This document shows positions 38,373-53,677 of a DNA stretch of 64,000 nt, piece after piece. A program made the position numbers and the translations under genes. The stretch is from NCBI RefSeq assembly GCF_000299035.1, contig NZ_JH921519.1:62001-126000 (forward strand), given 5' to 3'. The stretch is from Bacillus bingmayongensis. Its GTDB lineage: Bacteria; Bacillota; Bacilli; Bacillales; Bacillaceae_G. The notes under the pieces are model-generated. The model did not search any database and had not been told where the DNA came from. It was given only the letters and a program-made list of their open reading frames with translations. Position 1 is the first letter of the stretch; the number at the start of each line of letters is the position of its first letter.

Positions 38373-38383
38373 TGTTATTCACC

Positions 38384-38866
38384 TCAGACCGTTAAATCAT
38401 TTTCTGATTTGATATTAATTGCTTCTTGTAAAAGTTTTTGGAGAACAGCCGCAAAGACTGCGATAACCATCGAAGCAAAAGGAACAACCAATCCGACAAA
38501 GATAACTCCTGGTGCGTCGTCTACTTCCGCAAAGATATAGAAGAGCGGCCAAACTAGCACATGCAAAATACTGATTGTGATGGCACAGTATTTGATTATC
38601 TTTAAAGCTTTTACAGATAAATCGGAGAAAGCTTTATTTTTGTCAATATAGCGTAAGAGTTTGAAAGCCTGATACAAAGCAAAGTAAAAAGGTATCGCCG
38701 ATGCATCAAAAGCGATGAAAACGAAATATTTTATAAAAGCAAACTCTGGAAGCAATTTTGCTGCAAGATTCGCCATCTCAGGCACCAAAAAGATGCACAG
38801 AGCAAGAACTGGGACTCCTAAAAGAATAACAGCTATTTTTAAAAATAACGTTGTTACTTTTTCCAT
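38384..38866 (-). CDS. DUF2975 membrane protein
   Basis: 160 residues with four membrane helices (about 8-30, 50-70, 90-115, 125-150). GAGGTGC before the ATG at 38866 fixes the start. DUF2975 is a four-helix family of unknown role, nearly always paired with a YozG-type regulator, as here. First gene of the three-gene unit in element A. Confidence 0.88.
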   Translation of the reverse strand: MEKVTTLFLKIAVILLGVPVLALCIFLVPEMANLAAKLLPEFAFIKYFVFIAFDASAIPFYFALYQAFKLLRYIDKNKAFSDLSVKALKIIKYCAITISILHVLVWPLFYIFAEVDDAPGVIFVGLVVPFASMVIAVFAAVLQKLLQEAINIKSENDLTV

Positions 38867-39008
38867 AAAAAGCACCTCACTTATTTATTCTGATTTTGAT
38901 TTTAATATATATTTTATCGTTTTACAATAAATTTTTATTAATTTGGATAAAATTTTTATTGCGGGTTTTTGTTTTAAGCAAAAATAAAAAGGGGGACATT
39001 CAGGCCGA

Positions 39009-39224
39009 ATGAAATTAGATGATAAAAAGAAAAAAGTACAATTAAAATATAGAGAAAAAATTAAGCGACAAAGAGAAGATGATAAAAATTACACGAAACA
39101 AGCACTTATTATTGCAACCATCCTTGTGTTAATTTTTCTATCGATTATTTATTTTCACGATATTTTTTTCAAACCAGAACCAGACGATGGCTTTAGGATA
39201 GAAAAATGGCCAAAGCCAGAATAG
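39009..39224 (+). CDS. Small single-pass membrane protein
   Basis: 71 residues: a very basic N-terminus (KLDDKKKKVQLKYREKIKRQ), one membrane helix (QALIIATILVLIFLSIIYF) and a short acidic tail, so the N-terminus is cytosolic. AAAGGGGG is 13 bases from the ATG, rather far. Divergent from DUF2975. No family recognised. Confidence 0.6.
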   Translation: MKLDDKKKKVQLKYREKIKRQREDDKNYTKQALIIATILVLIFLSIIYFHDIFFKPEPDDGFRIEKWPKPE

Positions 39225-39541
39225 AGAGCAACCTTACAGCTCTCCTTTTTTATTAAACTAAACTGCCAGTTAGCTTAAGTACGTTTCTTCACAATATTCT
39301 CTATATGCTTTAACAGAAATATCTAATTTTCTTATTAAGTGTTATTCCACAAAATGGCCCTTTAGTTGATTAACTTTATTGCTACTCAACAATTCCTTAA
39401 TCCGCCTTTCAGTTCAGATTTTCTTTTCACTATAAAAACATCCTTTTAGATAAACAGATTCAAAGGGACAAAACATCGCGTCTTTTTTATAAACACTATG
39501 ACTTTATTTAAAAGCGACATTAAAAATATTCTTCAAATCCT

Positions 39542-39602
39542 GGAAGCATAAGTTTGCCGCAAACAAAAAGAACCATAACCTTGCCAAAATGGCAAAGTTA
39601 TG
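39542..39602. repeat. Right-end repeat cluster of element A, also a hairpin
   Basis: GAAGCATAAGTTTGCCGC and GAACCATAACCTTGCC face right, GGCAAAGTTATGGTTC faces left. The last two make a perfect stem, and on the reverse strand a TTCTTTTTG run follows, so it may double as terminator for the tns operon. The same order (inverted site, then outward site, then TGT tip) is seen at the right end of element B. Confidence 0.6.
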
Positions 39603-39614
39603 GTTCAAATCACA

Positions 39615-39619
39615 CAAAA
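39615..39619. repeat. 5-bp target duplication CAAAA (left copy)
   Basis: CAAAA lies between the right tip of element A (39614) and the left tip of element B (39620); the same CAAAA follows element B at 53289-53293. Confidence 0.85.
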
Positions 39620-39770
39620 TGTAACTTAAACTATATAATGGCCAATTATTAAATCATAAATTGGCCAATTATAAGCTTGTATTTAATAAATTTCATAACA
39701 TATCTTAATTCTTATTAACCATATAATGTTCAAAAACCAATTATTTAACCATATAATGACCAAAATAAAC
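39620..39770 (+). repeat. Left-end array of four TnsB-type sites
   Basis: Four direct copies of TTAACCATATAATGRCCAAT: centres at 39631 (AAACTATATAATGGCCAAT), 39654 (AAATCATAAATTGGCCAAT), 39719 (TTAACCATATAATGTTCAAA) and 39749 (TTAACCATATAATGACCAAA). Repeats of this length and head-to-tail order are how TnsB recognises Tn7 ends. Confidence 0.75.
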
Positions 39771-39784
39771 AACAATTAGCCTTT

Positions 39785-40702
39785 TCAAGATTCTATACCA
39801 TAATAAAATAAATCATTTAATTTTAATTTTGTCCGATAACTTAATAATAGAAGAGAGTTTAATGATAATCTATATTTTCCGCGTTCAATTTGCTGAAGCC
39901 TATTATTATCAATGTTTATTTGATAACAAAAACGCCTTCTATCTCCTTGAAAAAAATCCTGTATCCATTTATCTATAATGCCATATACTTGATTATTTTT
40001 AGGTATTTTTAGATTAGAAATTTTAATTACCATTTCTCCTAAGTTATCAGCAACCCATACATTCCATTCTTCTATATCCTTGTTAACAAATTTTAATTCT
40101 AAATTTTTATTGATACCAAGCCATTGATTACAAATTTGACAATATTCTATTGGTAGTTTTTCATGACGTGATGACTGAGAGGCTCTACATTCTACATTTG
40201 AACAAAACTGATGTAACTTTACATTATGCTGAGAACAAATATTTAATAAATTTATCCCCCATACTAATGGCTCATAACACTTTATTCCATTATTTTTCCA
40301 TTCTTCTAAACAAATTGGACACCATTTTTTTTCACTTGTAAATAACTTTGAATAACTCATTACATTTTCCCATGGTAACATTGTCATGTTTTTTGGATTA
40401 GAAATTAATCCTAGTTCCTCCAGCGATTCTACAACGAGCCCCATCGTTTTACTCATACCATTCCTCAGTATCGGATAATACATAGGAGTTGGATGTATCA
40501 ATTGATTAGGATGTAATTTAATTATATAAGAAACTAAAGCATGTAATGTTACATTATGAGCATTCGCTAACCTTCTTAAATAACTTACTAGCCCTTCTAC
40601 CCTATCTGTTCCAATTCCTATAGGTTCCAAAGCATAAAACTCACTCCTTTTCGAAAATGAATAAGTAGCTTGTTTTTCTTCAAATATTTTAATATTATTC
40701 AT
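39785..40702 (-). CDS. tniQ: TniQ-family targeting protein (second copy, short)
   Basis: 305 residues. TniQ start region with YLRRLANAHNVTL (41-53), then zinc-binding pairs Cys128/Cys131 (WCPICLEEW), Cys156-His159-His164-Cys167 and Cys188/Cys191 (CQICNQW), and a helical C-terminal region with an HTH-like end. TniQ/TnsD proteins pick the target and recruit TnsC. It is last in the operon, overlapping tnsC by 8 bp. Having two TniQ proteins usually means two target pathways; this one could be the mobile-target adaptor. Confidence 0.88.
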   Translation of the reverse strand: MNNIKIFEEKQATYSFSKRSEFYALEPIGIGTDRVEGLVSYLRRLANAHNVTLHALVSYIIKLHPNQLIHPTPMYYPILRNGMSKTMGLVVESLEELGLISNPKNMTMLPWENVMSYSKLFTSEKKWCPICLEEWKNNGIKCYEPLVWGINLLNICSQHNVKLHQFCSNVECRASQSSRHEKLPIEYCQICNQWLGINKNLELKFVNKDIEEWNVWVADNLGEMVIKISNLKIPKNNQVYGIIDKWIQDFFQGDRRRFCYQINIDNNRLQQIERGKYRLSLNSLLLLSYRTKLKLNDLFYYGIES

Positions 40703-41831
40703 CCTTCATTCCGCCTACTTTATCTCTTTTAGGATTTCTAATACCAACATTCTTTTTCTTCGAATTACCCTTTTGATTTACATTTTCATTATCAAGACCT
40801 AACTTTATCCTTACATCCAATATCTTATCTGAATTCTCTATGAAACACGCCTCTCCTTGTGAAAGTTCATCAACAAGTTTAGATACCTTATTTATAGAAA
40901 GAGCCGTATTTCTGAGATGTTGAATTTTTAATGACTTCTCATTATTTTCTAAAGCTAACCTCAACGCTCTTGTTAACCAATCCTTTAATATCCCTACACA
41001 TCCTACTGTTCTTTCATATAAATAATCCCAATTTTCAAATAATGAAGATGATGTTTCTATAGGAAGATATTCAAAAAGACCTTTAATAACTCCTAAATAA
41101 TTGATGAAATCTTGTTTGTTAGATATGTCATACCTAGGGAAATGTATGTCAAAGGTTCTTCTCGCTAGTTGCCCATTTAAATTTACAAAGTTCTTAAGTT
41201 CGTATGTACCAACTAGTAGTTGTGGAACTTTTGTTAGATTAGATAATGATTTAAGTGAATCTAGCTGATCCAAATACTTTCTTGCTGATGGCACTTTAGT
41301 AAAATGCTGAGCTTCATCCACAATAAACACTTGCGGTTTCCGATAATAAAAAGCATTTTCTAATGATCTTCTTAGCTCCGGAGAAGTTAAATAATGCCCC
41401 GGTCCCACTTTTATCTTTTCCCTCTTTTCTGGTTCGATATTATTTTTATATATAATTTTCTTTTCAATTAATGGCTCTTCCATAGCTCGCAGTACTCTTA
41501 CATAAAAATCTTTCCAATTAAAAATACCACTATCAGGAGATATAAGTTCTATAGATACAAAAGGAAGAATAGACCTCTCCTTCTCTAATTCATCAAATAA
41601 GTTATTTATAATTTCTTTTTTTAATTCCTCTATAAGCGTTGATTTCCCAACACCTGATGGTCCCAAAACCATAATAATTTCATTACCAGAAGGTTTCTCT
41701 ATCAATGATTTAAGTTCCGACATTACTTGATTCATTTTAGGATGGATTATCTTTACTCTTTTAAACTTATTTACTTTCTCTTCTAAAGTTTGTTTCCCTG
41801 TAGGTAACATATTTTCAACCAAATTCCCCAC
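40695..41831 (-). CDS. tnsC: TnsC/TniB AAA+ transposition regulator
   Basis: 378 residues. Walker A GPSGVGKST (57-65), Walker B VFIVDEAQH (168-176), sensor-type QLLVGTYEL and an arginine-rich lid, followed by a basic C-terminal tail. TnsC assembles on target DNA with ATP, linking the TniQ target selector to the transposase. The annotated GTG start abuts the ribosome site; TTG three codons later fits AGAGGGG better. It begins 18 bp after tnsAB. Confidence 0.9.
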   Translation of the reverse strand: MGNLVENMLPTGKQTLEEKVNKFKRVKIIHPKMNQVMSELKSLIEKPSGNEIIMVLGPSGVGKSTLIEELKKEIINNLFDELEKERSILPFVSIELISPDSGIFNWKDFYVRVLRAMEEPLIEKKIIYKNNIEPEKREKIKVGPGHYLTSPELRRSLENAFYYRKPQVFIVDEAQHFTKVPSARKYLDQLDSLKSLSNLTKVPQLLVGTYELKNFVNLNGQLARRTFDIHFPRYDISNKQDFINYLGVIKGLFEYLPIETSSSLFENWDYLYERTVGCVGILKDWLTRALRLALENNEKSLKIQHLRNTALSINKVSKLVDELSQGEACFIENSDKILDVRIKLGLDNENVNQKGNSKKKNVGIRNPKRDKVGGMKDE

Positions 41832-41849
41832 CCCTCTTCACTAATATTT

Positions 41850-44507
41850 TTAGTCTTCAATGACTTTGAAGTTTGGAATATTATTCACATCAATTTTTCT
41901 TGAATCAAAATTGGATTTTTGAGAAGCTATATTCTCTTCCAATCCAATTTCTTCAAAAGTAATACGAGATTTTCGGTTTTCTTTCTCTATTAAAGCTTGA
42001 TTCATTACTTTCTCATGATTTTCAATTGTTGTTATAAAACTTGCTATGTGTTTCAAATTTACTCTTCCTTTAATATTTAATTTATATCTAATTTCTTCCG
42101 TAATGCATTGCAGCTGTTTATGTGTTTTCCCATCAAGAAGATAATGGTATTCTGATATGCATTTAATCCACCTCTTATTTACATATGCATATAAGATTCC
42201 AACGTTAAAAGGATCATACTTTAAATCAACCTTTGTTTTTTCCGTTTTTGGATTTTTAAACTCTTCATTCCAATACCAAACATTATTAAACACAACTCCT
42301 TTACCTGGCTGAACTAAACCTTTTCCTCTAGGCGTAGATGGCAGAGTTGATAAGATGAAAGTTTGATCATATGAAATAAAATTCATTTCTCTCTCTCCTC
42401 CTAATGCAATTCCTAGCTCAAACTGTTTTTCAGGTGTTGTTCCCAATCCAGCATGTATAGTATTTTCATAGTGCTCAATCCACTCATAAAACAAAGTATT
42501 TAACTTTTCTAACGTCCAGATTGCAGAATTTTTCGGATTTGTACTCTTGGTAACAACCCTTACCTCTTTTGTCAGCTGGGTATTTCCTTGCAAATTGTGT
42601 ATGAAAGAAGAATTAGTTGTTCCAAATAAACGTTCTATAACACTTCCAAATCTAGCTTTAGCCGGTGGTCTTTTCTTTTTTATTATCCTATTTTGAGCAC
42701 ATAATACATCAAAATATAAGCTATGAAATTCTTTTCCACCATCGACTACAATGTTATGGGGTAATCGAAAATTTCTTCTTACACATTCTCGTAAAACCAT
42801 CATAATTGAACGATGACTTGGTGGATCAAAAGTTATATAATGCGCTAAAATCCTCCTGCAATATGCGTCCATTAATAACGTAAGATATGGTCTACGAGTT
42901 ATTCTTTCTTTTCCATCCATTAATACAAGCTCAATATCTAATTCTGTATGATCAATATGTGTAACTCCAAAAGGTCTATCACCATGTTTAGGAGTATGTA
43001 TCTCTAAATACCAATGCTCCATTGGATACGCAGCTCTTTTACCTTTCCTACTTTTTACTGTTTCATAGTTTGAGTAGCTATTAACGTATTTCGTGAATGT
43101 TACATAACTAGGAATACTAAGATCTTTTCTCTTACATTTTTCTTCAAACAAACTATATATAGCTTTTACATTCAGCTGCTTAATGCTATGGTAGTGTTTC
43201 TCTATAACCTCTTTTATTAAATCTTGAACAACCTTATCAATTTTTGACATCCTATTTCCTCTATGTTTCTTTTGTGGTATCAAACCTAAAAAACCATTAC
43301 CATATAATCTTTCAGCTTCTTCAAACGATTTTTCCCATCTTCTTATAGTTCTACCACTGTATTCAGTATTTTCAGCACCTTGATTATGAGCCTTCAACAA
43401 CTCATATCGACCATACGCTTCTTCAATATCTTTTGGAGAAGCGCCTTCTAATAAAATTTGCTTATATTCCTGTTGTTCGTCTGCGCTATTACTCTGATCT
43501 AGAAATTGAATAGCGCCTCTCTCATTAAGGATTTTAAAATTTTTTTGAGAAACGTTAACTAAAACATCTTCTTCATCTACCAACGATATATTATTACTTC
43601 CGATATTTATAACGCAGTATATTTTTCCATCCCATATTAACCTAGTACCTTGTTTAAGACGAGTAGATGTTAACCTATATGCTTCTTCACTATTAGTATT
43701 TTCAGCAAAAGTCATTTCATATATCTTTGATAAATCTTTATTTAAAAACAAAGGAACCTCGTGATGTTCAATTAAAATATACTTGTATAAATCAACATAA
43801 ATATGATTTTGAGCAATCATATTATAAATGTCATCTATAGTTAAAGTACTATAAGATTTCAAAATATCCTCAATTGTAATACCATATTTTGAAGATAGAA
43901 TGTCTCGAATTAATTTTATTTTCTGTTCATCTATTTCTAGGCACTCTGATACATTTATGTAGTCCTCAAGTATTTGAATATTTCTAGAAAAACTCCAATT
44001 AATTTCTTTAGAGCTCTTTAAATAAAACTTCAAACCAAGTCTATTTGCAAATTTTTCTCCTGGTGGGCATCTCCAATTCCCTTCTAAATCTTTAACATAT
44101 CTATTAGGAGATTGTTGACTTAATTTTAAAAGTTCTTCTTCTGTTTTCCACTCTTCCCATCCGGCCTCATTTTCTCTTATAACAAAAAAATCTGGAGTAG
44201 AATTAACCGAAACCTTACGATTATTCTTAGACAGATATTCCAAACAAACTGTATTAGGTTGGTCATAGTATTCTAAAACTGAAGAATCATATTCCATTTT
44301 ATATATTGCATTTAACTCAACCTTATGGCTTTCAAATTGAATAGTCATCCCCATTTTTCTACTGGGATAAAAACCTGATACATTCCCTCTTCCGCTTTGT
44401 ACCTTTCTACTAGGCGGGGAAGTTCTGATCTTATTAATTAAATCTTGTGCAGAGACAGACAATTCATTTTCCTTGCACCACTTAATAAATTCAACCTCTT
44501 GTAACAT
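41850..44507 (-). CDS. tnsAB: Fused TnsA-TnsB transposase
   Basis: 885 residues. Residues 50-125 carry a TnsA-type nuclease: Glu64 in SHKVELNAIYKMEYD, Asp106 in STPDFFV, and Glu119-x-Lys121 in EEWKTEEE. A TnsA C-terminal-like and linker region follows to about 370. The DDE integrase core has Asp519 (THIDHTELD), Asp589 (IVVDGGKEF) and Glu625 (GSVIERLFG), followed by a Mu-C type beta-barrel. Both strands can therefore be cut, giving cut-and-paste movement. It overlaps the upstream tniQ by 17 bp. Confidence 0.92.
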   Translation of the reverse strand: MLQEVEFIKWCKENELSVSAQDLINKIRTSPPSRKVQSGRGNVSGFYPSRKMGMTIQFESHKVELNAIYKMEYDSSVLEYYDQPNTVCLEYLSKNNRKVSVNSTPDFFVIRENEAGWEEWKTEEELLKLSQQSPNRYVKDLEGNWRCPPGEKFANRLGLKFYLKSSKEINWSFSRNIQILEDYINVSECLEIDEQKIKLIRDILSSKYGITIEDILKSYSTLTIDDIYNMIAQNHIYVDLYKYILIEHHEVPLFLNKDLSKIYEMTFAENTNSEEAYRLTSTRLKQGTRLIWDGKIYCVINIGSNNISLVDEEDVLVNVSQKNFKILNERGAIQFLDQSNSADEQQEYKQILLEGASPKDIEEAYGRYELLKAHNQGAENTEYSGRTIRRWEKSFEEAERLYGNGFLGLIPQKKHRGNRMSKIDKVVQDLIKEVIEKHYHSIKQLNVKAIYSLFEEKCKRKDLSIPSYVTFTKYVNSYSNYETVKSRKGKRAAYPMEHWYLEIHTPKHGDRPFGVTHIDHTELDIELVLMDGKERITRRPYLTLLMDAYCRRILAHYITFDPPSHRSIMMVLRECVRRNFRLPHNIVVDGGKEFHSLYFDVLCAQNRIIKKKRPPAKARFGSVIERLFGTTNSSFIHNLQGNTQLTKEVRVVTKSTNPKNSAIWTLEKLNTLFYEWIEHYENTIHAGLGTTPEKQFELGIALGGEREMNFISYDQTFILSTLPSTPRGKGLVQPGKGVVFNNVWYWNEEFKNPKTEKTKVDLKYDPFNVGILYAYVNKRWIKCISEYHYLLDGKTHKQLQCITEEIRYKLNIKGRVNLKHIASFITTIENHEKVMNQALIEKENRKSRITFEEIGLEENIASQKSNFDSRKIDVNNIPNFKVIED

Positions 44508-45831
44508 ATATTCTCCCCTTCGGAATACTGAATTGTTTTTCTAATTCTAAACGCACTTGATAAAAATACTCTTTCATTGGACGATTTTTAAAAAGGAATG
44601 GTAAGTTTAATTCTTCCTCTAATAATTTTCTAGTAGGAAAAACGCCTTGTGAAAAATAGTTATAACAGACTTCTTGTATCTGCTCTTTTAAATTAGACAA
44701 ATAAAGGGACTTTTCTTCAGTTTTTATTTGATAATTACGCTCTGAAATTCCCCTACACTCTTCTGGAAAATTAGTATAAAGAAATTTCGTACTACATTTT
44801 AAATCTTTAGCAATATCAATTATTGCCTTGACACCAGATTGCTCCTTTTCTATCCCACTCATATATGTAATAACTTCTTCGTTACTCAATTTGAATTTCT
44901 CCCTTTTTCCTACTGCTTTATTTATGCCACTAACTAATACCTTATTTATCTGTATCTTTGTATGTTCTGTATATAATACTTGAGCTGGAATATTTAAAGT
45001 GTAAGCAATGTCTAAAACCTTATTTAGCGGTGGAATAACTTCTTTATTTAGCCATCCCCATGCTGTTGTTTTAGGTACACCTATGTAATTAGCAAATTGT
45101 TTTATATTTCCATCAAAATCAAGGTGAAGAATAGAGGATAGATTTTCATACAACGTATAGATCCTAAATTTATTTTCTTTTCCTACAGCTTTTAAAATTT
45201 TTTCTACACTTTGAGAAATATAATAATCTTTGTGGTCTGTAAACTGGAGAGTATTGAGTGGTTTAAATAGTTGAGATTGACAGTAAGGACATATGCCAAT
45301 TCTAATCTTTCTATGTAAAAACGGAATCAACTCATTGCAAGTCGGGCATTTTTCTTCTAAGTGGATTTTATGTTTTGTACATACATTGTAAGCTGTCAAA
45401 CACCAAATTAACGGATAATATAAAGAATCCTTCTCCATTAATTCATTCAAACATTTAGGACACCAGGCTAAAGTCTTTCTTATTAAATTTCTAACAGAAA
45501 AAACCTCTTTAAACTTAGAGAGAGTTAACAAATTTAAATTTCCTGTTCCTGTAAGATACTCTAAAGTTGTTACCATGTCTTTTGCATTCTTTTCAATACC
45601 ATTAATTGTCCTGGCACCATCATAAAAACGATTTCCTCCCCTATCTACACTATTTAACAAATATTTTTTCCCTAACACAGGAGCTATCTCATACGCTAAT
45701 AAATCCCCTAAATACACAGTATGTGCGTCTGCTAGCCTAATAAGGTAACTCGATAGCGATTCTACAAATGGAGTATCTATTCCCTTTGGATATATCCCAT
45801 ATAATCGACTTCTTACCAAATTTTCAAACAC
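44491..45831 (-). CDS. tniQ: TniQ/TnsD-like targeting protein (long copy)
   Basis: 446 residues. YLIRLADAHTVYL (29-41) is the TniQ signature. Zinc ligands: Cys124/Cys127 (AWCPKCLNE), Cys151, His154, Cys162/Cys165 (KCPTCNEL) and Cys181/Cys184 (CPYCQSQLF). The longer C-terminal part (200-446) has two HTH-like segments (KQFANYIGVPKTTAWGWL), as in TnsD proteins that read a fixed attachment site. It is the best candidate for the ssrA-recognising protein. First gene of the operon. Confidence 0.88.
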   Translation of the reverse strand: MFENLVRSRLYGIYPKGIDTPFVESLSSYLIRLADAHTVYLGDLLAYEIAPVLGKKYLLNSVDRGGNRFYDGARTINGIEKNAKDMVTTLEYLTGTGNLNLLTLSKFKEVFSVRNLIRKTLAWCPKCLNELMEKDSLYYPLIWCLTAYNVCTKHKIHLEEKCPTCNELIPFLHRKIRIGICPYCQSQLFKPLNTLQFTDHKDYYISQSVEKILKAVGKENKFRIYTLYENLSSILHLDFDGNIKQFANYIGVPKTTAWGWLNKEVIPPLNKVLDIAYTLNIPAQVLYTEHTKIQINKVLVSGINKAVGKREKFKLSNEEVITYMSGIEKEQSGVKAIIDIAKDLKCSTKFLYTNFPEECRGISERNYQIKTEEKSLYLSNLKEQIQEVCYNYFSQGVFPTRKLLEEELNLPFLFKNRPMKEYFYQVRLELEKQFSIPKGRIYVTRG

Positions 45832-45854
45832 TACCCCTTACCCTCCTTCACTTT

Positions 45855-45910
45855 ATAATTAAGAATATTGACCAATTTCTGATAATTTAACCGTATAATG
45901 TAGATATATA
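45855..45910 (-). promoter_or_regulatory. tns operon upstream region with internal TnsB-type sites
   Basis: TTTAACCGTATAATGTAGAT (centre 45891) and TTAAGAATATTGACCAATTT (45860-45879) match the end repeats in the same direction. Lying directly before the first tns gene, they suggest autoregulation by the transposase. No strong promoter hexamers stand out. 45911-46150 shows nothing else. Confidence 0.5.
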
Positions 45911-46181
45911 ATAATTTTCCATCGGAAATTCCGTAGTAATACTATAAATTCATATAAGTAATATTAGAATCTACCTATAGCCAAACATGCATAAAATTCT
46001 TTTTTGAGAAGGACTTTTAATCAAACCTTATTTTAATTTTGGAGTCTATTTGATAACAATCAAGCTATAATGCTATATCATTTGTGATATTCTTATAGAA
46101 AGGGCATCTTGACATATTTCTATTCATTGTACTAACAAATGTAAACAATAAAAAAATATTCTATTGGAAGGAGCAAATTAA

Positions 46182-46418
46182 ATGTCTACCCACTCATTAA
46201 AACAAGCTAATATTAAAACAACTAGTAAGGCTCTAGGAATCTATCCTAAACATCCAAAAATGGATGAAGAGCTACACAAAACCATTGGAATTCAGCTATC
46301 TAGTGAACAGGCTATAGATTTGGCAACAAATTTACTCATTGGTGCAAAAAATTGGGATAAATTACGCTTAACTGCATTTAGAAAAGACAACTCAATAACA
46401 ATTACTACTCAAAAATAG
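46182..46418 (+). CDS. Small cargo protein, unknown
   Basis: 78 residues; GGAAGGAG eight bases before the ATG. The N-terminal half is basic and threonine-rich (KQANIKTTSKALGIYPKHPK), the C-terminal half looks folded (LSSEQAIDLATNLLIGAKNW, then KLRLTAFRKDN). No signal or membrane segment. It is the only rightward gene in the transposon, between the tns operon and the restriction genes, and has its own terminator. It could be a regulator or an accessory of the defence cargo; nothing proves it. Confidence 0.7.
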   Translation: MSTHSLKQANIKTTSKALGIYPKHPKMDEELHKTIGIQLSSEQAIDLATNLLIGAKNWDKLRLTAFRKDNSITITTQK

Positions 46419-46473
46419 AGAAATATAAGGATTCCAAACGTCCCAAAAATATCTTTATTATTTCGCAACATAA

Positions 46474-46504
46474 AAATAGCACCTACTATAGGTGCTATTT
46501 TTAA
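46474..46504 (+). terminator. Terminator of the small cargo gene
   Basis: AAAATAGCACCTA pairs with TAGGTGCTATTTTT. The 530 bases to 47038 are AT-rich and show no gene. Confidence 0.85.
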
Positions 46505-47038
46505 AATGCTTTTATATCCTTATCATTATTGAAAAATTTTTAGGAGTAGCATCACATACTCATCATGCTAAATTGAGTATGTGATAGTTCAGTTAGACCT
46601 TTTGCTGCATTGCAAAAATTAATGTAAACTGCATAGTAATTTGTATACAAAATAAATTCTAAAACAGATTTTGAATTTATTACCAATCCAATTACTTTGT
46701 TCTTTATAGATGATTTGTTTCCTACGCTCTTTAAGTTACAAAATCTGTTTACACGGATGCCATTTTGAAGGTACTCATGCTAAATAAGAACCCTTTATAT
46801 TAAGGTATTAGAATTTAATTAGAAAATGAAACTCTAATTTGTCTATTGTATATATTTTTCAATCTAATTACCTATATAAATTGATATTGTTTTTTCAAGC
46901 ATCTCTATTTTTTACATTAGCGATAAAAAGTTAATAATATATCTTAATCTAATTTAAGTATGAACTAACTACAATCTCTTTACGTTTCCTCCCTCCCAAC
47001 ATCAGTCTAATTAAAGAGAATACTTATTTATTCAAAAC

Positions 47039-48016
47039 TTAAAGCATATTTAAAACGGCATGTACAACGTTAACTTTCTCAATAGGAGTATAAGGAACAG
47101 GCAAAATTTTGACCTCGACGGCTTCTAAATTACCAACATTCCCAGTTACTTTTTCTAATTTAATAACATTTTCTTTAGGATCTTTCGCTTCCCAAATAGG
47201 GTAGTAAAGATTAATTATAGGTATATCCTTGTCTAAATAATTACGTAATATAGCTATACGATTATATTTTCTATTATCATCAGCTCTCCCAGTCGCAGAA
47301 TAGTAATTATTTAGGGATTCATTATGTATAGAACGATGATATGGTCTTCCAGGTTCAATTGTATTTTTTTTAAACTCTATTATTGCTATTGGTCTCTCAT
47401 TATTATCAAACAATAATAAATCAACGTCCCCTGGCCATGCAGCTTCATCTTCATCTGTATTAGACAAATAACATTCTAAGTTTGTTGATGCCACTTTGAG
47501 ACCATATGTTTTCGAAACTTTAACTTTCCCTCCAGATAAACGTTGTATTTCACTTTTGATAGAACTCAAGTCCTGCTTTATCACATTTTCTATGTTTCCA
47601 TTGGCACCAATATCTACGGTCACAAACTTCGCAGGGTATTTCGCCCAATCCCTCGAATCAATAAAAACTTGGTACCTAGCCTTAAAATTCAACGAATTCG
47701 CAAATTTACCATAGTTAACTAAAAATTCTTTTCCTTCACAGTCTTCTAAAGCAGTTTGTAATAACTGTATATCAGTACAAGGCCAAACGCTTTCGAATCT
47801 TTCAGCAAATTCAGCTCTATTAATGTTCCTCTTTACCCAAAACTCATTTGACAAAAAATTTGTCTGTCCCCAACTAATAAAAAAATCAAAATTCAAAGTA
47901 AAAAATGCCTTACCAAGATAATTATTAGAGAACCATTCAATTGGTTCTGTAGTATTTGCATGTGTTTTTGCACTCCTTCCGCTAGAACAATATGCAAGTT
48001 TAGGAATGTAAATCAA
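47039..48016 (-). CDS. PD-(D/E)XK nuclease-like protein in the restriction cargo
   Basis: 325 residues. PGDVDLLLF (195-203) and IAIIEFKKN (210-218) form a PD-(D/E)XK-type active site, with Asp199, Glu214 and Lys216. The N-terminal 130 residues are of no known family. No helicase or methylase motifs. It follows res by 148 bp on the same strand without a clear terminator, so it may add a nuclease or a further defence function to the type III system. Confidence 0.75.
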   Translation of the reverse strand: MIYIPKLAYCSSGRSAKTHANTTEPIEWFSNNYLGKAFFTLNFDFFISWGQTNFLSNEFWVKRNINRAEFAERFESVWPCTDIQLLQTALEDCEGKEFLVNYGKFANSLNFKARYQVFIDSRDWAKYPAKFVTVDIGANGNIENVIKQDLSSIKSEIQRLSGGKVKVSKTYGLKVASTNLECYLSNTDEDEAAWPGDVDLLLFDNNERPIAIIEFKKNTIEPGRPYHRSIHNESLNNYYSATGRADDNRKYNRIAILRNYLDKDIPIINLYYPIWEAKDPKENVIKLEKVTGNVGNLEAVEVKILPVPYTPIEKVNVVHAVLNML

Positions 48017-48164
48017 GATAACTCCCTCCTTTTTTTAATCATTACACAAAAAGTAATATTTTACAAAGGGTATATGAGATAACTTTAAAATCACTGGTAT
48101 ACAAAGAAGTAACCATCAAATAGTTTGAGGGTTACTTCTTTAAAAATGTAAGTTTATCTATCTG

Positions 48165-50792
48165 CTACTCCTTTTCCTCAAATACAAGAAATTCAAAACG
48201 CTCTTCCAATAAATCATCACAAAATACCTTCTTAGAAAAGTCCTTTTTAAATTCTTGTTTTAATTCGGGGGTATTGGAATAAAACTTTATACCATGTAGC
48301 TTTACATGTTCATTTTCACCTAACACTGTAATCTCCTGGCTACTAGAAATAGACATCAAGAAATCTTCTTTCCATTGATCCTGTATGCGTAAATTATCAC
48401 CTTTAGGCTCTAAAAAAATCTGATACGTAAAATCGGCGTCTTTTAAATACAATAAAAAGTCTGGCATGAATCCTCGTGTTCCATTAAATTCAACTAACTT
48501 TACTTTTCTTTCATTTCTAATGAGATATACTTCTGAATACTTTTCTTTTAACTGATCCATATAATCAATTATAAAGTCAATCATACTACTTTCTAGCCCA
48601 TTTACAATTGCTTGATCATATATATACCAATCGTGATCGCGCATGTTTCTTGGTTTAATCACCTGATTAACTTGGACTTTAGTATTAACTTTATTCATTT
48701 CTATAGCATAATCATCAATAAGTTTAGAAATTGCTACTCCTTCAAAAATTTTAGTTCCACGCTCTTTCTTATAGTTTGAACGAATTTTTCTCTCACATTC
48801 AGATAAAATCTTCTCTACTATAATCAACTTTTCTTTAGGTAAAAGATCTTTAACTGAAATACCTATAGGTAATGAAACATTAATTATTAAACTCCCTAAA
48901 AAATCTGGTCCTTCAATAAAATCACGTATACTTTTTATACTAGGAACAAATTCTTTCAGATTACTGAAATGATAAAATTTATTACGCTGTATTGCCTTTT
49001 GCAATAGTCTTTTATCTAACTCTAGCTGTTCTTCATGTTTCTTAACCCCAGATTTTGTCTCTTGGTCGGAGCCAAATTTTTTCTCCACAGCAGCATCATA
49101 TTCTATTAAATGAACGCGATTTATTCCATAGTCATTCATTGATTTATAATCATTAGCTGTAGTGGGTACAACCTGATTGATATATACCTTTCCATCCTTG
49201 AAAAAATCTTTTTTCCGTATCCTTGGTTTGATTTTAGCCTCTAATCTTTCATATTGATCTTCTTTGAATTGAATTTCTGCTACTTCCAAGGATTTTTCAA
49301 GATTTTTAATATACGTACTTTCATTTATAGTGTGGTAATGTAAAGTCTCAATAACCCTCAAGTCGTTATCACTTAAATCGAATCTACGTTTATAAGAAAA
49401 CTCTCCATCGTACTCAAAAGGATAATAACGAGCTCCACGACCAATTAATTGCGCTTCACTATCTGTAGTTGCTTTGGTTCCTGAAGCTCCTTCACTAATA
49501 CGTACAATGTCAAATAGGTTTAAAACATCCCAACCTTCATTCAATTTTGCCACAGCAAAGATTGTACGAATAGGATTATTTAAATCTTCTAACGTATTAA
49601 GAAGTATAGCATTTTTATCTGAAATTAAAGACTGGTCATTTGCATTTATTGTAGTTTCTCTCGTGAAATCCCATTGTAAATCTTGAATAACCCGCTCCAA
49701 GTCCTGCATCTCATAATACTGATACATTTTACGCCATATACTATTTTCATTTTGGTAAATTGCAAGACCGTTCTTTATAACCTGCTTCATATAATCTACA
49801 GTTAAGTTATCTACCAGTGCTAAAAAGATATTATTGGCCTCTAATGAAACTGCAATTTTATTTGACTTAAATAAAATAATAGGTTTTAATTCAATTCCAT
49901 TATTTCGAGCAATATACTTCCTATATTGGCTTAATAAAATTGCATTAAGCATCTTATTTGAGTCATCTTCATTGGAACGCAAAAGTACTACATTCTTTGA
50001 GTAACCATCGGTCATAAACCGTTTTAAATCATACTGATAAACAATCTTGTCACAGTACTTATTAAAAAGGCCATCATTTTCTAGGTTAATTGTTGCCGTA
50101 AATTCAACTAATCTGTTCAATGGGTTAAGTTCTAATAATTTATTCACAGTACTTTCCCACGTTCGCTCCGCGATTTCTTTTGTCGAAAGCTTCCGTTTAT
50201 TACTTTTAGTTAACGTATTAATATGATGAGCTTCATCAGCTAAGAAGACCATTCTTATTTCTTCTAAAGCATCAAACGTTATTTTATTTTCTCCAGGATT
50301 AGTTAAATCCATATGAAGCTTCTGGATAGTTGTAAGTTTAAGGTAAATTGTATTCTCTGCTGGTATAACAGGAAATGTATCTACGATTTGGATAGTAACT
50401 GATTCTCCATCAATTACTATCCCAGCTTTATCAAATAAATACTTTGATGAAGCTGTATTAGTTAAATTATCATATGTCTTCTTTATAATCGCATCACTAT
50501 TCACAAAGAAAATAAAATTTTGATATCCTTTTTCTTTAAATAAATACAGAATTGTCGATGCCAAGACCAGGGTTTTCCCTGATCCTGTTGCCATATGGAA
50601 TAGTAAGTAATTAAAAGATATGTCTGCAGTATCAGAACGTTGTGTGTATATAAATTGCTGTAATGCTTGCTCTTGATATGGACGCATTTTATGCCTTAAA
50701 TTATCACTAATATAATTAGGAATTTCAGGCGGAATCTCAAAAATATCATTAAAACGTTTTTCTATTCGCGAATGTAATATTTCATTAATCAT
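48165..50792 (-). CDS. res: Type III restriction enzyme subunit Res
   Basis: 875 residues. Superfamily 2 helicase motifs: ATGSGKT (68-74), DEAH (186-189), EGWDVLNLFD and QLIGRGARY (motif VI). A C-terminal endonuclease has Asp778 in MPDFLLYL and Glu795-x-Lys797 in FLEPKGD. Type III Res translocates from two head-to-head unmethylated sites and cleaves. Its ATG overlaps the mod stop codon (TAATG), so the two are translationally coupled. Confidence 0.95.
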   Translation of the reverse strand: MINEILHSRIEKRFNDIFEIPPEIPNYISDNLRHKMRPYQEQALQQFIYTQRSDTADISFNYLLFHMATGSGKTLVLASTILYLFKEKGYQNFIFFVNSDAIIKKTYDNLTNTASSKYLFDKAGIVIDGESVTIQIVDTFPVIPAENTIYLKLTTIQKLHMDLTNPGENKITFDALEEIRMVFLADEAHHINTLTKSNKRKLSTKEIAERTWESTVNKLLELNPLNRLVEFTATINLENDGLFNKYCDKIVYQYDLKRFMTDGYSKNVVLLRSNEDDSNKMLNAILLSQYRKYIARNNGIELKPIILFKSNKIAVSLEANNIFLALVDNLTVDYMKQVIKNGLAIYQNENSIWRKMYQYYEMQDLERVIQDLQWDFTRETTINANDQSLISDKNAILLNTLEDLNNPIRTIFAVAKLNEGWDVLNLFDIVRISEGASGTKATTDSEAQLIGRGARYYPFEYDGEFSYKRRFDLSDNDLRVIETLHYHTINESTYIKNLEKSLEVAEIQFKEDQYERLEAKIKPRIRKKDFFKDGKVYINQVVPTTANDYKSMNDYGINRVHLIEYDAAVEKKFGSDQETKSGVKKHEEQLELDKRLLQKAIQRNKFYHFSNLKEFVPSIKSIRDFIEGPDFLGSLIINVSLPIGISVKDLLPKEKLIIVEKILSECERKIRSNYKKERGTKIFEGVAISKLIDDYAIEMNKVNTKVQVNQVIKPRNMRDHDWYIYDQAIVNGLESSMIDFIIDYMDQLKEKYSEVYLIRNERKVKLVEFNGTRGFMPDFLLYLKDADFTYQIFLEPKGDNLRIQDQWKEDFLMSISSSQEITVLGENEHVKLHGIKFYSNTPELKQEFKKDFSKKVFCDDLLEERFEFLVFEEKE

Positions 50793-52678
50793 TATACTTC
50801 GTCTCCACTATTACTATTATAGAAGGACTTATTAAACTTTTTGTCTACATCCAATATTTCGAATTCAGCGTCATCCATTTCCGAAAAATTAAGATATAAC
50901 TGGTTGGCATCAAGAGATTGAATTATAATATCCTTCTTATGTTCTAAATCCAAATTCTGAAAATCAGTATTCTCATTGGTTAAACGATCAATTAAAACCT
51001 TGTAATCATAAAAAGCATAAGCATTAATTTTTTGCAAAACTTCTTGGAAATCTAACTCTGTTTTAACCTTTTGGACAAGCTTTATATATAGATGATTTAA
51101 CTCTTGTAATTCCGCATAAATGAAACTGCCACCCCCCTGCCAATTCACTTCTTTTGAAATACCACCCTGTTCTCCTTCGAGAACCTTGCTTAAGCGAACT
51201 AAAGGCACATTCTTAATATAATCCATTTGTTCCACACCTATAAATTGTCTTCTCATTTTCATTGCCACAGCCTGTGTTGTACCAGATCCCATAAAGAAAT
51301 CCAAAACAATATCATTTTCATCTGATCCAAGATGAATAATCTTTTTTAATAAACGTTCAGGTTTTGGTGTAGAAAATACTTCTTCTGTATTAAAAGCCTT
51401 AGTTTCTTCCCTTGCTTCATGATTATGACCGACTTCATCAAACCGCCAAATAGTCTTTGATGGGGTTCCCTGATTTTTTAGTTCACATAAAAATGTTTTT
51501 CTCGATGGTATAGCCGTCCCATCTATCCCAAACCAAATTTCATCATTTTCGTCCATTCTCTTTAAAGTTTCTTTCGAATACCTCGAAAACGTTCCTGCAG
51601 GCGGGGTGAATACTACACCATTCTTAAACTTATATGAAAAATTTGCACTATCTGTTGATCCACTTTTTGCATGAAGCGGTGTTGCCTTCCATACACCTTT
51701 TGGATGATTATCAGGATTTTTATAGGCACTATTCATTTCAGCTGTCCTTGGTAATGGATTTGGACGCCAAGTATCTTTATTTTTAGCAAAAACCAAAATA
51801 TGGTCATGGTTATCTGACAACCACTTAGCATCATTTGAAATCGTATATTTTTTTTCCCAAACTACATTATTAATAAAGTTTTCTCTCCCAAAAATTTCAT
51901 CGCAAAGAACTTTTAAATAATGTGATTCATCATCATCTATTGTTATCCAAATAGAACCATCCGGAGCAAGTAAATCTTTAGCTACCTCTAATCGGTTTTT
52001 CATAAATGTTAACCATGTAGAATGATTAAATTTATCATTATACTTAAAACTATCTCCGCCTGTGTTATAAGGTGGATCAATAAAAATTAATTTAACCTTC
52101 CCTACAAATCGCTCCTTTAAGGTGTGTAAAGCTATTAAGTTATTTCCCTTTATAATTAAATTATCTTTTTGGTTAAATGTTATTACGTCTTCTAGTCCAT
52201 TTTCAGTATACCGTTTCACATTAGTAAAAACCTTAGGAGATAATAAGACATCTATTTCTTCTCTTGCCAAAACCTTATGATAGTAGTTCTCTCTTTTTCC
52301 CTTATCTTCTTTCTTCATTCCGCCTTCAAGAACACAGTCCTTATGAGGGAAATCTAAAACAACATCACTATTATACTTTAGATATTTTTCATTACTAGTT
52401 AAGCCAATTTCATTACTAAATTTGGTATAACTGTCTTCCCAATAATTTTTAAATCTTAACATACTGATAAACTCATTGACTTTAAAGATAGTTCCACCAG
52501 TTATCTTTACAGAATATGTTTGCCTAATTAAATCTTTTGAAAGTAAGCTCTCTATAAGATCTTGATTGTAAGCCCTTAAATCTTCAATTACTTTTGAGCT
52601 TACTAATACTCCTTCCTTCCAATATTGTGGAAATTCATTCAAAACATCCTTTACTTGTGTCATTAATGAAGTATTCAT
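50792..52678 (-). CDS. mod: Type III DNA methyltransferase subunit Mod
   Basis: 628 residues. DPPYN (201-205) precedes FMGSGTT (462-468), the order of beta-class amino-methyltransferases as in Mod subunits, so adenine N6 methylation is expected. The long stretch between them is the target-recognition region. It methylates the recognition site and is needed for Res activity. First gene of the leftward cargo operon. The ATG at 52678 follows AAGGAGA. No phase-variable repeat tract is visible in it. Confidence 0.95.
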   Translation of the reverse strand: MNTSLMTQVKDVLNEFPQYWKEGVLVSSKVIEDLRAYNQDLIESLLSKDLIRQTYSVKITGGTIFKVNEFISMLRFKNYWEDSYTKFSNEIGLTSNEKYLKYNSDVVLDFPHKDCVLEGGMKKEDKGKRENYYHKVLAREEIDVLLSPKVFTNVKRYTENGLEDVITFNQKDNLIIKGNNLIALHTLKERFVGKVKLIFIDPPYNTGGDSFKYNDKFNHSTWLTFMKNRLEVAKDLLAPDGSIWITIDDDESHYLKVLCDEIFGRENFINNVVWEKKYTISNDAKWLSDNHDHILVFAKNKDTWRPNPLPRTAEMNSAYKNPDNHPKGVWKATPLHAKSGSTDSANFSYKFKNGVVFTPPAGTFSRYSKETLKRMDENDEIWFGIDGTAIPSRKTFLCELKNQGTPSKTIWRFDEVGHNHEAREETKAFNTEEVFSTPKPERLLKKIIHLGSDENDIVLDFFMGSGTTQAVAMKMRRQFIGVEQMDYIKNVPLVRLSKVLEGEQGGISKEVNWQGGGSFIYAELQELNHLYIKLVQKVKTELDFQEVLQKINAYAFYDYKVLIDRLTNENTDFQNLDLEHKKDIIIQSLDANQLYLNFSEMDDAEFEILDVDKKFNKSFYNSNSGDEV

Positions 52679-53219
52679 TTACCATGTCTCCTTAATTACT
52701 CTTTTCTTCTATTCCTATGTTCCATTAATTTTAGAAATATACTATTCAAATTAATAAGCAAGGACCTGATTTTCGAAATTAAATAATAAAAAACGAAATT
52801 CCCTTTAGCTCCTTATTTAAAAATAAATTTTTAAATTATATAAAATCCCGTATAGTAAAAAACATCAGGATACTTTTCCTTTTAAAATACACATATTAAA
52901 TTTATTATATCACTACTAACCTCACAAGATATCCATAAAAACCTTATCTATACTACCCTTTTAGATTTTAATTCCCTGATGATAAATAACGTTCTATCGA
53001 TATGATGAATTGATAAAGAATTTACCATTCTCCTACTATTTACTCTTATATAACTTCCTGGAATAATATTAATTTCCTCCTGATATAACAACTGAGATAC
53101 TTAAATTAAATGCAAAGCCCGCTAAAACAAATCCAATCTTAATCATGCTCAACTTCACACAACATCATAAACTTCCAAACATCTCCACAAAATATATCCA
53201 CTAGGGCTTTTTTAATTAA
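52679..53219. other. AT-rich gap before mod
   Basis: No gene, RNA or strong repeat recognised. It must contain the promoter of the mod-res unit. Confidence 0.5.
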
Positions 53220-53221
53220 AG

Positions 53222-53288
53222 GATATATTGACCAAACACAAATAAACCATAAAGCGACCAACTTGGCCACTTTATGGTTTAATATACA
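53222..53288 (-). repeat. Right end of element B with TnsB-type sites
   Basis: From the tip inward on the reverse strand: TTAAACCATAAAGTGGCCAA, an inverted copy (forward strand AAACCATAAAGCGACCAA at 53244-53261) and a weaker third site around ATTGACCAAACA. The first two make a hairpin. Spacing from TGT to the site is the same eleven bases as on the left. Confidence 0.75.
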
Positions 53289-53293
53289 CAAAA
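53289..53293. repeat. 5-bp target duplication CAAAA (right copy)
   Basis: Identical to 39615-39619 and directly outside the ACA tip at 53288. Confidence 0.85.
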
Positions 53294-53324
53294 AATAAAA
53301 AAACCACCAAATATGTATTGGTGG
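53294..53324 (-). terminator. ssrA terminator
   Basis: CCACCAATACATATTTGGTGG followed by TTTTTTTATTTTTT on the reverse strand; it uses the tmRNA CCA end as its left arm. Confidence 0.85.
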
Positions 53325-53677
53325 AGACGGTGGGAGTCGAACCCACGTCCAAAGATATTGGCACTTAAGCTTCTACGAGCATAGTCGATATATTGGCATT
53401 TCGCAAACTCTTCAGCCTATCGACAGGCTTCCAAGTTGCTAGTCTGATTGTTCTCTTCCTTCGTCCTCAGACGGCGAACTCCGGCGTAGTCCACTTAGTT
53501 TGAGTCCCTTACCCTACCACATGGACGATGGAGGGAGGAACCGCTAAGCTGTATTAAGCAGCTAAAGCGAAGTTGTTTTGTTGTTTGCCAGTTATTGGCT
53601 TTGACGTTTTAACGAGGCCGATCCCCTCGACTCGCAACTTAAGCTCAAACTACCCCTGTCGAATCCGTAACGTCCCC
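53319..53677 (-). ncRNA. ssrA: Transfer-messenger RNA
   Basis: 359 nt from GGGGACGTTACGGATTCGAC to the end GACTCCCACCGTCTCCACCA. The tRNA-like ends pair, the T-loop GGTTCGACTCC is intact, and the resume frame encodes GKQQNNFALAA then TAA. It rescues stalled ribosomes with SmpB, whose gene precedes it in the same direction. Its 3' flank is the insertion point of the Tn7-like element. Confidence 0.97.

Follow-up and report, generated by a model that had tools for sequence, protein, structure and literature searches.

What kind of mobile DNA lies beside the tmRNA gene ssrA of Bacillus bingmayongensis, where it begins and ends, and what directed it to this position are the questions raised by the 64,000-nucleotide stretch analyzed here (the window), in which an initial annotation had proposed a Tn7-like transposon of 13,669 bp with exact ends. 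The unit in question (39620–53288; element 1) begins with TGT at 39620 and ends with ACA at 53288, 21 of its 26 terminal bases match when inverted, and it is flanked by the target-site duplication CAAAA, at 39615–39619 on the left and at 53289–53293 on the ssrA side; the terminal features claimed for it are all present in the sequence. Among the TGT...ACA pairs in the whole window that lie 1–45 kb apart and have identical 5-bp flanks (n = 803), the element 1 pair is the best and the runner-up has only 16 matching bases. When the flank condition is dropped, 21 is still the highest value among 472,961 TGT...ACA pairs in the window, but the runner-up reaches 20, so that the terminal repeat by itself is unconvincing. 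The left end (39620–39763, + strand) consists of the tip followed by four putative TnsB sites of 20 bp in direct orientation, identified with a site model at 39626, 39649, 39714, and 39744, all on the + strand, with a 23/65/30 spacing that is identical in locus L001. The right end (53216–53288, − strand) consists of the tip and three sites, of which one points outward (53282, −) and two are inverted (53242 and 53216, both +). In a leave-one-out model the sites of element 1 score 16.1–27.4 bits, as compared with 13.8–15.2 bits for the top position in the first 36 kb, and a scan for the right-end layout based on geometry only matched the window twice, at 53288 and 39614, and yielded no match in any of 30 Markov-1 random windows. 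A repeat before tniQ2 (45865–45900) was also considered as a transposase site and was dropped, as it scores less than 9 bits with the site model. The proposed borders are thus supported by the tips, the duplication, the pair statistics, and the independent arrays of 20-bp sites, and the ends have all the features of a Tn7-like element: TGT/ACA tips, arrays of transposase-type sites of about 20 bp, and a 5-bp target duplication.

The gene content is that of a Tn7-like element as well, a TnsA-type endonuclease, a DDE TnsB, an AAA+ TnsC, and TniQ being encoded together, all on the − strand. The first gene, tniQ1 (39785–40702), encodes a short TniQ of 305 residues (Pfam TniQ, 7.3e-14) with its Cys/His motifs present; it is followed by tnsC (40695–41831), encoding an AAA+ ATPase of 378 residues (Pfam AAA_22 / TniB) with Walker A- and B-type motifs, and by tnsAB (41850–44507), encoding a TnsA endonuclease fused to a TnsB transposase in a protein of 885 residues, whose top solved relative is 9bw1_M (E 8.5e-218). 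Glu72, Asp106, and Lys121 and Asp519, Asp589, and Glu625, which we take to have catalytic roles, are present in TnsAB. The fourth gene, tniQ2 (44491–45831), encodes a TnsD-type target selector of 446 residues that groups in the clade of upstream TniQs and, over its own residues 7–429, matches TnsD of 8v32 and 9bw1 (E 6.4e-50). No Cas effector was found among the eight ORFs scanned in element 1, and no regularly spaced CRISPR-type array is present among the repeats listed. Element 1 is a member of the fused-TnsAB branch that also gave rise to the I-B2 and I-D CRISPR-associated transposons.

The remainder of element 1 is cargo, beginning with a small ORF of 78 residues (46182–46418, + strand) that has no match in Pfam, PADLOC, or NCBIfam. 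The − strand carries a gene for a 325-residue protein (47039–48016), a candidate nuclease in which the stretch GDVDLLLFD...AIIEFKK, read from the sequence, presumably represents a PD-(D/E)xK-like motif; it has no family match in the same three collections and no match in the plasmid collection. Also on the − strand are res (48165–50792; PADLOC REase_III, 3.1e-255) and mod (50792–52678; PADLOC MTase_III, 3e-196), which encode a type III restriction subunit of 875 residues and a methyltransferase of 628 residues. The adjacent Mod and Res, with methylase and helicase motifs, identify a type III restriction-modification system, carried here as transposon cargo, which differs from others of its kind in being adjoined by the 325-residue protein without known family. 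Restriction-modification modules are described in a section of PMC8649781 as the commonest defense cargo of Tn7-like elements. The initial annotation had listed tniQ, tnsAB, tnsC, a second tniQ, and a defense cargo, all open, and this list holds: the reading frames are intact, the expected motifs are kept, and a type III restriction-modification system is found.

The description of the locus as a complete Tn7-like element next to ssrA also stands, on the evidence of ends, genes, motifs, and relatives, but what lies behind the left CAAAA is not simply host DNA. Directly outside this CAAAA lies the right tip (39614) of a second Tn7-like end, missed previously, in which sites at 39608 (−), 39568 (+), and 39541 (+) were found by the site model and the geometry scan (39541–39614, − strand). 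A model built from these three sites alone ranks four sites at 35540, 35567, 35590, and 35620 (35540–35639, + strand) 4th to 7th of 127,962 positions, below nothing but its own training sites. The two arrays delimit an older Tn7-like unit of about 4.1 kb without tns genes (35534–39614; element 2), whose left boundary is approximate, the left tip being decayed to TATTTT without a CAAAA flank. Its cargo (36014–39224), found by an ORF scan, consists of a DUF3224 protein, a membrane-type protein of 429 residues, a Cro/C1-type HTH regulator, a DUF2975 protein, and a 71-residue ORF, with no transposition gene among these five; the HTH-DUF2975 pair has relatives on plasmids of Priestia, Metabacillus, and Bacillus. 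When the proteins of element 1 were used in tblastn searches (E ≤ 0.01), there were no matches in the window outside element 1. A longer island with tns genes of its own, of which the older right end would be a part, was considered and rejected, as the window contains no additional array of this kind and there was no tblastn match.

The newer element 1 landed at the very base that the older element 2 had used. Before this insertion the order would have been ssrA, a single CAAAA, and the right end of element 2 (ssrA - TTTTTTG - TGTGATTTGAACC). In both G001 and G005 an older right end likewise meets a left end, the two overlapping by a few bases; in the window the junction is exact. Since the outer arrays belong to the same family and are correctly oriented, the region 35534–53288 might be regarded as a single larger transposon that moves as a unit, with the left end of element 2 and the right end of element 1 as its borders and with incidental inner ends. 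This is highly improbable, as the outer left tip reads TATTTT instead of TGT and has no CAAAA flank, whereas both the tips and the duplication of the inner pair are perfect. In addition, the element 1 model gives 13.6 and 10.4 bits to the two element 2 sites in its list as compared with 22.0–29.6 bits for its own, and the two arrays therefore differ in site sequence. The stacking of two diverged elements at one base bears on the question of escape from target immunity.

The gene beside which both elements lie, ssrA (53319–53677, − strand), was identified with ARAGORN, Rfam RF00023, and a terminator scan, and the right tip of element 1 is 30 bp past it. The fixed distance past a conserved, intact gene expected of a Tn7-like element recurs elsewhere: of 19 Bacillota loci with a relative of TnsAB, 14 have a right end of this type 27–32 bp past ssrA, and in the other five (L001, L009, L016, L017, and G221) the genome's ssrA has no such array. 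It should be noted that L010 and G385 are counted as ssrA loci with tnsAB not placed on the contig of ssrA and, for L010, with the array read by eye; that the array of L008 has just two sites above the limit; and that the array of L006 (G002) is weak (score 23), with tnsAB about 36 kb away and with a left end that was looked for and not found. For six ssrA elements (those of the window, G001, G003, G004, G005, and L008), a 5-bp duplication was read at each of the two ends, the ends in G004 being on two contigs; L010 is not included, as its flanks have no matching 5-bp repeat. The tmRNA gene therefore seems to serve this family of Tn7-like elements as a landing site, with relatives in other bacteria using the same spot. 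In related genomes, the ssrA-smpB stretch is 73–78% identical in 41 of 43 members of one family, and in the other two (G405 and G418) it matches piecewise, with ssrA at 86–90% and smpB at 70–74%; a second stretch of the window has top matches of no more than 79% in these genomes, short pieces aside. No close match to the window was found in the genus of G405 (one genome) or in the plasmid collection, and the viral contigs scanned gave no match. These comparisons lend no support to a host from the Bacillus cereus group.

The tmRNA gene is described in a passage of PMC10121019 as a widely used integration position, and an integrase-type genomic island of the kind formed by phages and conjugative elements could be envisaged here. 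Almost no weight can be given to such an island, given that the 13 ORFs scanned in the interval of 36–52.7 kb include no integrase, that the last 16 bases of ssrA have no second copy in the window with 3 mismatches allowed, and that a 5-bp duplication and a DDE transposase are present instead. Among the literature matches listed, from a search that did not take in one key paper, none reports a Tn7-like insertion at tmRNA. The word tmRNA is absent from the main text of PMC10293859, PMC8649781, and PMC11406308, and the passages on tmRNA in PMC10121019, PMC12452197, and PMC8249745 concern subjects other than Tn7-like insertion at this gene. The present observations extend the landing sites of Tn7-like transposons to tmRNA, and they indicate a position in Bacillota at which a conserved RNA gene stays whole after insertion.

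How this site is chosen can be proposed from the genes and their relatives. The best explanation, in which we have considerable confidence, is that element 1, a member of the fused-TnsAB branch, is a complete Tn7-like transposon that moves by cut-and-paste and is stacked on element 2, with TniQ2 most likely reading ssrA. TnsAB would bind the arrays of 20-bp sites, cut both ends, and join them 5 bp apart in the target, at a position chosen by TnsC held there by the TnsD-type TniQ2. The sequence read by TniQ2 is most likely the strand of the tRNA-like acceptor and T-stem at the 3′ end of ssrA, which would set the right end 27–32 bp past the gene in the manner of the related I-B2/I-D TnsD proteins at tRNA genes; a related I-D element is described in part of PMC10293859 as homing 30–33 nt downstream of a tRNA gene. 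Because ssrA is left whole, the landing site stays usable, and element 1 would have reused it, pushing element 2 outward. In several relatives a group I intron lies in the T-loop of ssrA, so that only the last ~18 nt of the gene adjoin the insertion; an intron-bearing ssrA would limit the recognized sequence to a short stretch. These considerations suggest how a mimic of tRNA could serve as the target of a TnsD that reads tRNA, and the elements provide comparative material on target choice by non-CRISPR relatives of CRISPR-associated transposons.

The short second selector, TniQ1, probably serves another target or partner. Both TniQs are present in the fetched stretch at 13 of 14 ssrA loci, the stretch for the fourteenth (L021) being cut, and position by itself is therefore no proof that TniQ2 is the reader of ssrA. 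This co-occurrence, together with the account in part of PMC10293859 of a TniQ in Tn6022 that works with a separate target selector, TnsF, would also fit selection of ssrA by TniQ1, or by TniQ1 and TniQ2 jointly. We regard such a role of TniQ1 as rather unlikely: the 305-residue protein matches TnsD over its N-terminal part only, and most of the downstream TniQs have long branches and group poorly in the tree despite the common target of most of the loci. The upstream TniQs fall in one clade in 21 of 21 cases (support 99/97). When the two TniQs of the G198 element are compared with TnsD of 8v32, the upstream one matches over residues 2–419 with 237.7 bits, and the downstream one has 177.6 bits with residues 6–300 as its best stretch. 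The sister row of TniQ2 of the window in the tree is from G221 (88/84), a locus without an ssrA array, which counts against the reading of ssrA by TniQ2; the nearest row by path is L008, an ssrA locus.

The right ends have a further property in relation to ssrA. In element 1, the sites at 53282 (−) and 53242 (+) form a terminator-like stem of 18 pairs on the strand of ssrA (hairpin 53281–53243), and the right end of element 2 contains a similar stem of 17 pairs (hairpin 39606–39570) followed by a T-run on the same strand; the terminator-like hairpin of ssrA itself is at 53324–53304. Similar arrays lie past ssrA in 10 (strict limit) to 17 (loose limit) of 60 loci in genomes without a TnsAB match. 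It is a tentative possibility that the right end is a dual device, in which the inverted pair of TnsB sites would bind transposase as DNA and terminate ssrA intrinsically as RNA, with hosts keeping the right ends of dead transposons as ssrA terminators. Landing on the ssrA terminator, and even splitting it, would then be harmless to tmRNA, which would allow repeated stacking at one base, and the arrays without TnsAB would be a fossil record of repeated visits. The odds of this reading are lowered by an ordinary hairpin elsewhere in L135, which scores 20.8 with the right-end model. The same hairpin, the stem and T-run of element 2, and the similar hairpins after ssrA in genomes without TnsAB could also be taken to mean that 39541–39614 is the old ssrA terminator of the host, which transposon right ends merely resemble. 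That is very unlikely, as a terminator needs no TGT tip, third site, or distant array, whereas this segment carries TGT at its tip, includes a third site that is inverted and shows the 40/27 spacing known from other right ends, scores 73.1 (its own sites being in the training set), and is matched by a four-site array of the same type 4 kb away. It is therefore still regarded as the right end of element 2.

Among known elements, Tn7 itself shares with element 1 the TnsABC and TnsD logic, the 5-bp duplication, and insertion immediately beyond a conserved gene without disrupting it. The tns genes of Tn7 are read away from the attachment gene, as are those of element 1, and, as far as is known, its right-end sites all point one way, unlike the one outward and two inverted sites found here. 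Element 1 also differs from Tn7 in the fusion of TnsA and TnsB in one ORF and in having ssrA in place of glmS; no ORF labeled TnsE is present among its ORFs scanned. These three features place it outside Tn7 sensu stricto. Tn7 is described in a section of PMC8649781 as having three sites on the left and four on the right. Loci with dual TniQ-TnsD proteins usually encode one of >400 residues and a much smaller one, according to part of PMC10293859, and element 1 is similar with selectors of 446 and 305 residues. Tn6022 also has two selector proteins, but its partner is TnsF and its target comM, whereas element 1 has two TniQ-family proteins and ssrA as its target. Among solved structures, TnsAB and TniQ2 have their closest relatives in 9bw1 and 8v32, which we take to be the PmcCAST complex. 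The I-B2/I-D CRISPR-associated transposons (PmcCAST, CyCAST, and McCAST) and their non-CRISPR relatives differ from element 1, which has no detected Cas gene or CRISPR array, is in a Bacillota-type host rather than a cyanobacterium, and lies at ssrA instead of a tRNA gene, none being present in the window; they share with it the fused TnsAB, TnsC, long TnsD, and short TniQ, and a point of insertion some 30 bp beyond the 3′ end of a gene for a tRNA or a tRNA-like RNA.

The Tn7-like transposon that the initial annotation placed at 39620-53288 (element 1; 13,669 bp) is upheld as complete by the agreement of its tips, its CAAAA duplication, the inverted match of 21 of its 26 terminal bases and seven putative TnsB sites arrayed inside its ends. 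Read from the sequence, the left junction is CAAAA-TGTAACTTAAAC..., the duplication starting at 39615 and the element at 39620, and the right junction is ...TTTAATATACA-CAAAA, the element ending at 53288 and the duplication at 53293. Among the 803 TGT...ACA pairs in the window that lie 1-45 kb apart and have identical 5-bp flanks, this pair is top with 21 matches, the runner-up having 16. When the flank condition is removed, it is still the best of 472,961 pairs, but the second pair reaches 20; the terminal repeat is therefore weak by itself, and the case for the borders is carried by the duplication and the site arrays. The 20-bp sites lie at 39626, 39649, 39714 and 39744 (all +) in the left end and at 53282 (-), 53242 (+) and 53216 (+) in the right; scored leave-one-out, the seven give 16.1-27.4 bits, compared with a maximum of 15.2 in the first 36 kb of the window.

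The proposed content of tniQ, tnsAB, tnsC, tniQ and restriction cargo is likewise borne out by Pfam and PADLOC names and by the retention of key residues. The genes of element 1, with the exception of one small ORF, point leftwards, away from ssrA, in the order mod, res, the gene for a 325-aa protein, tniQ2, tnsAB, tnsC and tniQ1. The labels obtained are TniQ (twice), TniB/AAA, Mu-transpos_C, type III Res and type III Mod, with the TnsA C-terminus just under its cut-off and rve under its own. TnsAB has E72, D106 and K121, and D519, D589 and E625, residues whose catalytic roles are known from Tn7; Walker-type motifs are kept in TnsC, and Cys/His pairs in TniQ1 and TniQ2. The best solved relative of TnsAB is 9bw1_M (E 8.5e-218); that of TniQ2 is TnsD of 8v32 (residues 7-429, E 6.4e-50), as is that of TniQ1, in its N-terminal part only. 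We take 8v32 and 9bw1 to be the PmcCAST I-B2 complex; no Cas gene is present among the eight scanned ORFs of element 1, and no CRISPR-like array appears in the repeat lists. The 325-aa protein (47039-48016), which adjoins the type III genes, has a PD-(D/E)xK-like motif and no match in Pfam, PADLOC, NCBIfam or plasmids.

Element 1 abuts a second, older unit of Tn7-like type, about 4.1 kb long (element 2, about 35534-39614), which is recognized as such because of its right-end layout and a four-site array at 35540-35639. Its right tip, ...GGTTCAAATCACA, lies at 39614, immediately beyond the left CAAAA of element 1, and is followed inward by sites laid out as in the element 1 right end, one outward at 39608 (-) and two inverted at 39568 and 39541 (+). 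A model built from these three sites only ranks the four positions at 35540-35639 4th to 7th of 127,962, below its own training sites only; triples of such sites (<100 bp, one strand) number two in the window, which by ranked positions are overlapping triples of this single array, and zero in 30 random windows. No transposition gene is found among the five scanned ORFs of element 2, and the proteins of element 1 have no tblastn match (E <= 0.01) elsewhere in the window. The cargo consists of DUF3224, a membrane-type protein, an HTH regulator and DUF2975, the HTH-DUF2975 pair occurring also on Priestia, Metabacillus and Bacillus plasmids. Since the left tip is TATTTT and has no CAAAA flank, the left border is approximate. 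The left-array spacing is 27/23/30 in element 2 and 23/65/30 in element 1 and the related locus L001, and an 18-base stretch, AAACAAAAAGAACCATAA, is common to the first two left sites of element 2 and its inner right-end sites (35560-35580, 39562-39582); this left array may be rearranged, perhaps a relic pieced together by recombination from more than one element. Elsewhere in the window, at 3572-4889, is an IS3-family insertion sequence with two ORFs and 84-85% identity to its two best plasmid copies.

In the window, the CAAAA duplication of element 1 is followed exactly by the older right end, and the left end likewise abuts an older right end in genomes G001 and G005, where a few bases of the duplication are overlapped. 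The 38.5-kb G003 element lies within a hairpin that follows ssrA (C141:127150-127200 and 165690-165760; L123, L159), with ACCGC duplicated, and has the hairpin's remaining half, not an older right end, as its left flank; the split hairpin is probably the ssrA terminator. Locus L124 (G004:C60:140549-140665) has a second right-end-like array within about 120 bp of the first, perhaps a further stacked relic. Target immunity is known for Tn7 (PMC11406308). The site sequences of elements 1 and 2 differ, which would fit an escape from target immunity, short of proof.

The position of element 1 next to ssrA (53319-53677) also stands, its tip being 30 bp from the gene. A genome contig search for TnsAB relatives gave 27 loci, assigned by title to Bacillota (15), Acidobacteriota (11) and a cyanobacterium (1); at E <= 1e-80, 398 Bacilli genomes yielded 7 with a relative, four of them new (G198, G385, G126 and G221), making a Bacillota set of 19 loci. 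A right-end array of this type lies 27-32 bp past ssrA in 14 of the 19 (L003, L004, L006, L008, L010, L011, L014, L015, L019, L021, L026, G198, G385 and G126). The two genes share a contig in 11 of these 14; in L011 (G004), the tnsAB and ssrA contigs are joined by matching duplications, and L010 and G385 are counted without tnsAB being placed on ssrA's contig. The L010 array was identified by eye, that of L008 has two sites above the limit, and that of L006 is the weakest scored. No such array was found past ssrA in the genomes of L001, L009, L016, L017 and G221, nor, outside Bacillota, after ssrA at the match end in that of L027. Duplications at both ends are CAAAA in the window and, in ssrA orientation, ATGTG in G001, ACCGC in G003, CTATG in G005 and ATTTT in L008; that of G004, TCAAT in the same orientation, has its ends on two contigs. 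In L009 (stretch 1950-2019), the element lies 28 bp beyond a tRNA-like 3' fragment that no tool called a gene; an inverted copy of the fragment's T-arm is present between the fragment and the tip.

A scan by geometry only, free of any sequence model (a TGT tip, one 20-mer and two inverted copies of it, with their ends about 40 and 67 bases further along), matched 13 of 41 scaffolds (1,113,067 bases, both strands; L014 and G117 overlap) and none of 30 random windows. The matches are the window, at 53288 and 39614, the ssrA flanks of G001, G003, G006, G198, L026, L015, G425, G418 and G406, and L009 and the cyanobacterial plasmid loci L168 and L170. Several of the 28 unmatched scaffolds bear tnsAB (G002, G004, G005, L008 and others); these have non-TGT tips, weaker arrays or a right end beyond the stretch. 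With slightly looser spacing and TGT not required, G117, G126 and G385 had their right ends detected too, together with weaker matches (38-41) in G221, L001, L009, L010 and G385, of which some fall on the strand opposite a true array and the remainder are probably chance. The right-end layout seems to be a property of the wider fused-TnsAB family, beyond the ssrA elements.

A three-site score taken 12-60 bp past ssrA was calibrated on 46,062 windows from other parts of the same 60 loci; it was above the 99.9% level in 24 loci, or in 20 of 56 when the model training loci L081, L121, L123 and L126 are set aside. TnsAB is encoded in the genomes of seven of these 24, and the other 17 lie in genomes without a TnsAB match at the cut-offs applied (13 at E 1e-50, 4 at 1e-80). 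The top score elsewhere, 46.1, is L112's own array past a misplaced ssrA end, here scored as a miss; the next, 20.8, is a hairpin of L135 away from ssrA, so an ordinary terminator can reach that score. Above 20.8 are 17 of the 60 loci (7 in TnsAB genomes, 10 without), and the weaker seven arrays without TnsAB may be plain terminators. On ssrA's strand, a terminator scan picked up, besides ssrA's own terminator, the right end of element 1 (18 pairs) and that of element 2 (17 pairs); since it gave 11 sites in total versus 8.0 expected in shuffles, and the G198 and G003 right ends have no T-run, we can but infer from the sequence that the right end may act as an ssrA terminator.

A T-loop intron of about 290-300 bp interrupts ssrA in G006 (L126:4540-4813), G001-G005, G385, G410 and G411; the group I call (Rfam RF00028, 36.5 bits, E 1.4e-07, under the gathering score) applies to L126 only, the others being seen as split ssrA matches. 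By a plain count that ignores kinship, at least 3 of the 7 TnsAB-bearing Bacilli genomes have an ssrA intron (G001, G004 and G385). In the L196 stretch (G117:C4:21127-21974), the G117 element carries an additional tmRNA gene immediately within its right end; this gene has the tag GKQQQPYALAA versus GKQNNNLAFAA, and after it comes another right-end-like hairpin (read by eye). G418 has two tmRNA genes 0.75 kb apart (L140:24-385 and 1134-1495), with a right-end array after the second. The tag peptide of the window ssrA, GKQQNNFALAA, recurs among 37 tagged related-family loci only in L120 (G405), a genome whose rnr and smpB stretches beside ssrA are only 70% identical to those of the window.

Of 46 TniQ proteins placed in a tree, all 21 upstream ones, TniQ2 among them, form one clade (99/97), and the downstream ones are mostly long branches with poor resolution. 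The upstream TniQ of G198 matches solved TnsD along its length (237.7 bits), and the downstream one gives 177.6 bits in all, best over the first 300 residues. The sister row of TniQ2 is G221 (88/84), whose element is not at ssrA, which counts against TniQ2 as the reader of this gene; by path, its nearest row is L008, at ssrA. In relatives with the T-loop intron, the ssrA sequence bordering the insertion is reduced to roughly its last 18 nt. Published I-B2 and I-D TnsD proteins target tRNA genes (PMC11406308); for I-D, homing falls 30-33 nt beyond tRNA-Leu, and TniQ lowers it (PMC10293859). The matching distance and the matching protein suggest, by analogy, that the tRNA-like end of tmRNA is what TnsD recognizes. 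Although ssrA as an attachment gene, stacking at one base and a tns-less neighbor are undescribed as far as the literature was searched, the component parts are already known.
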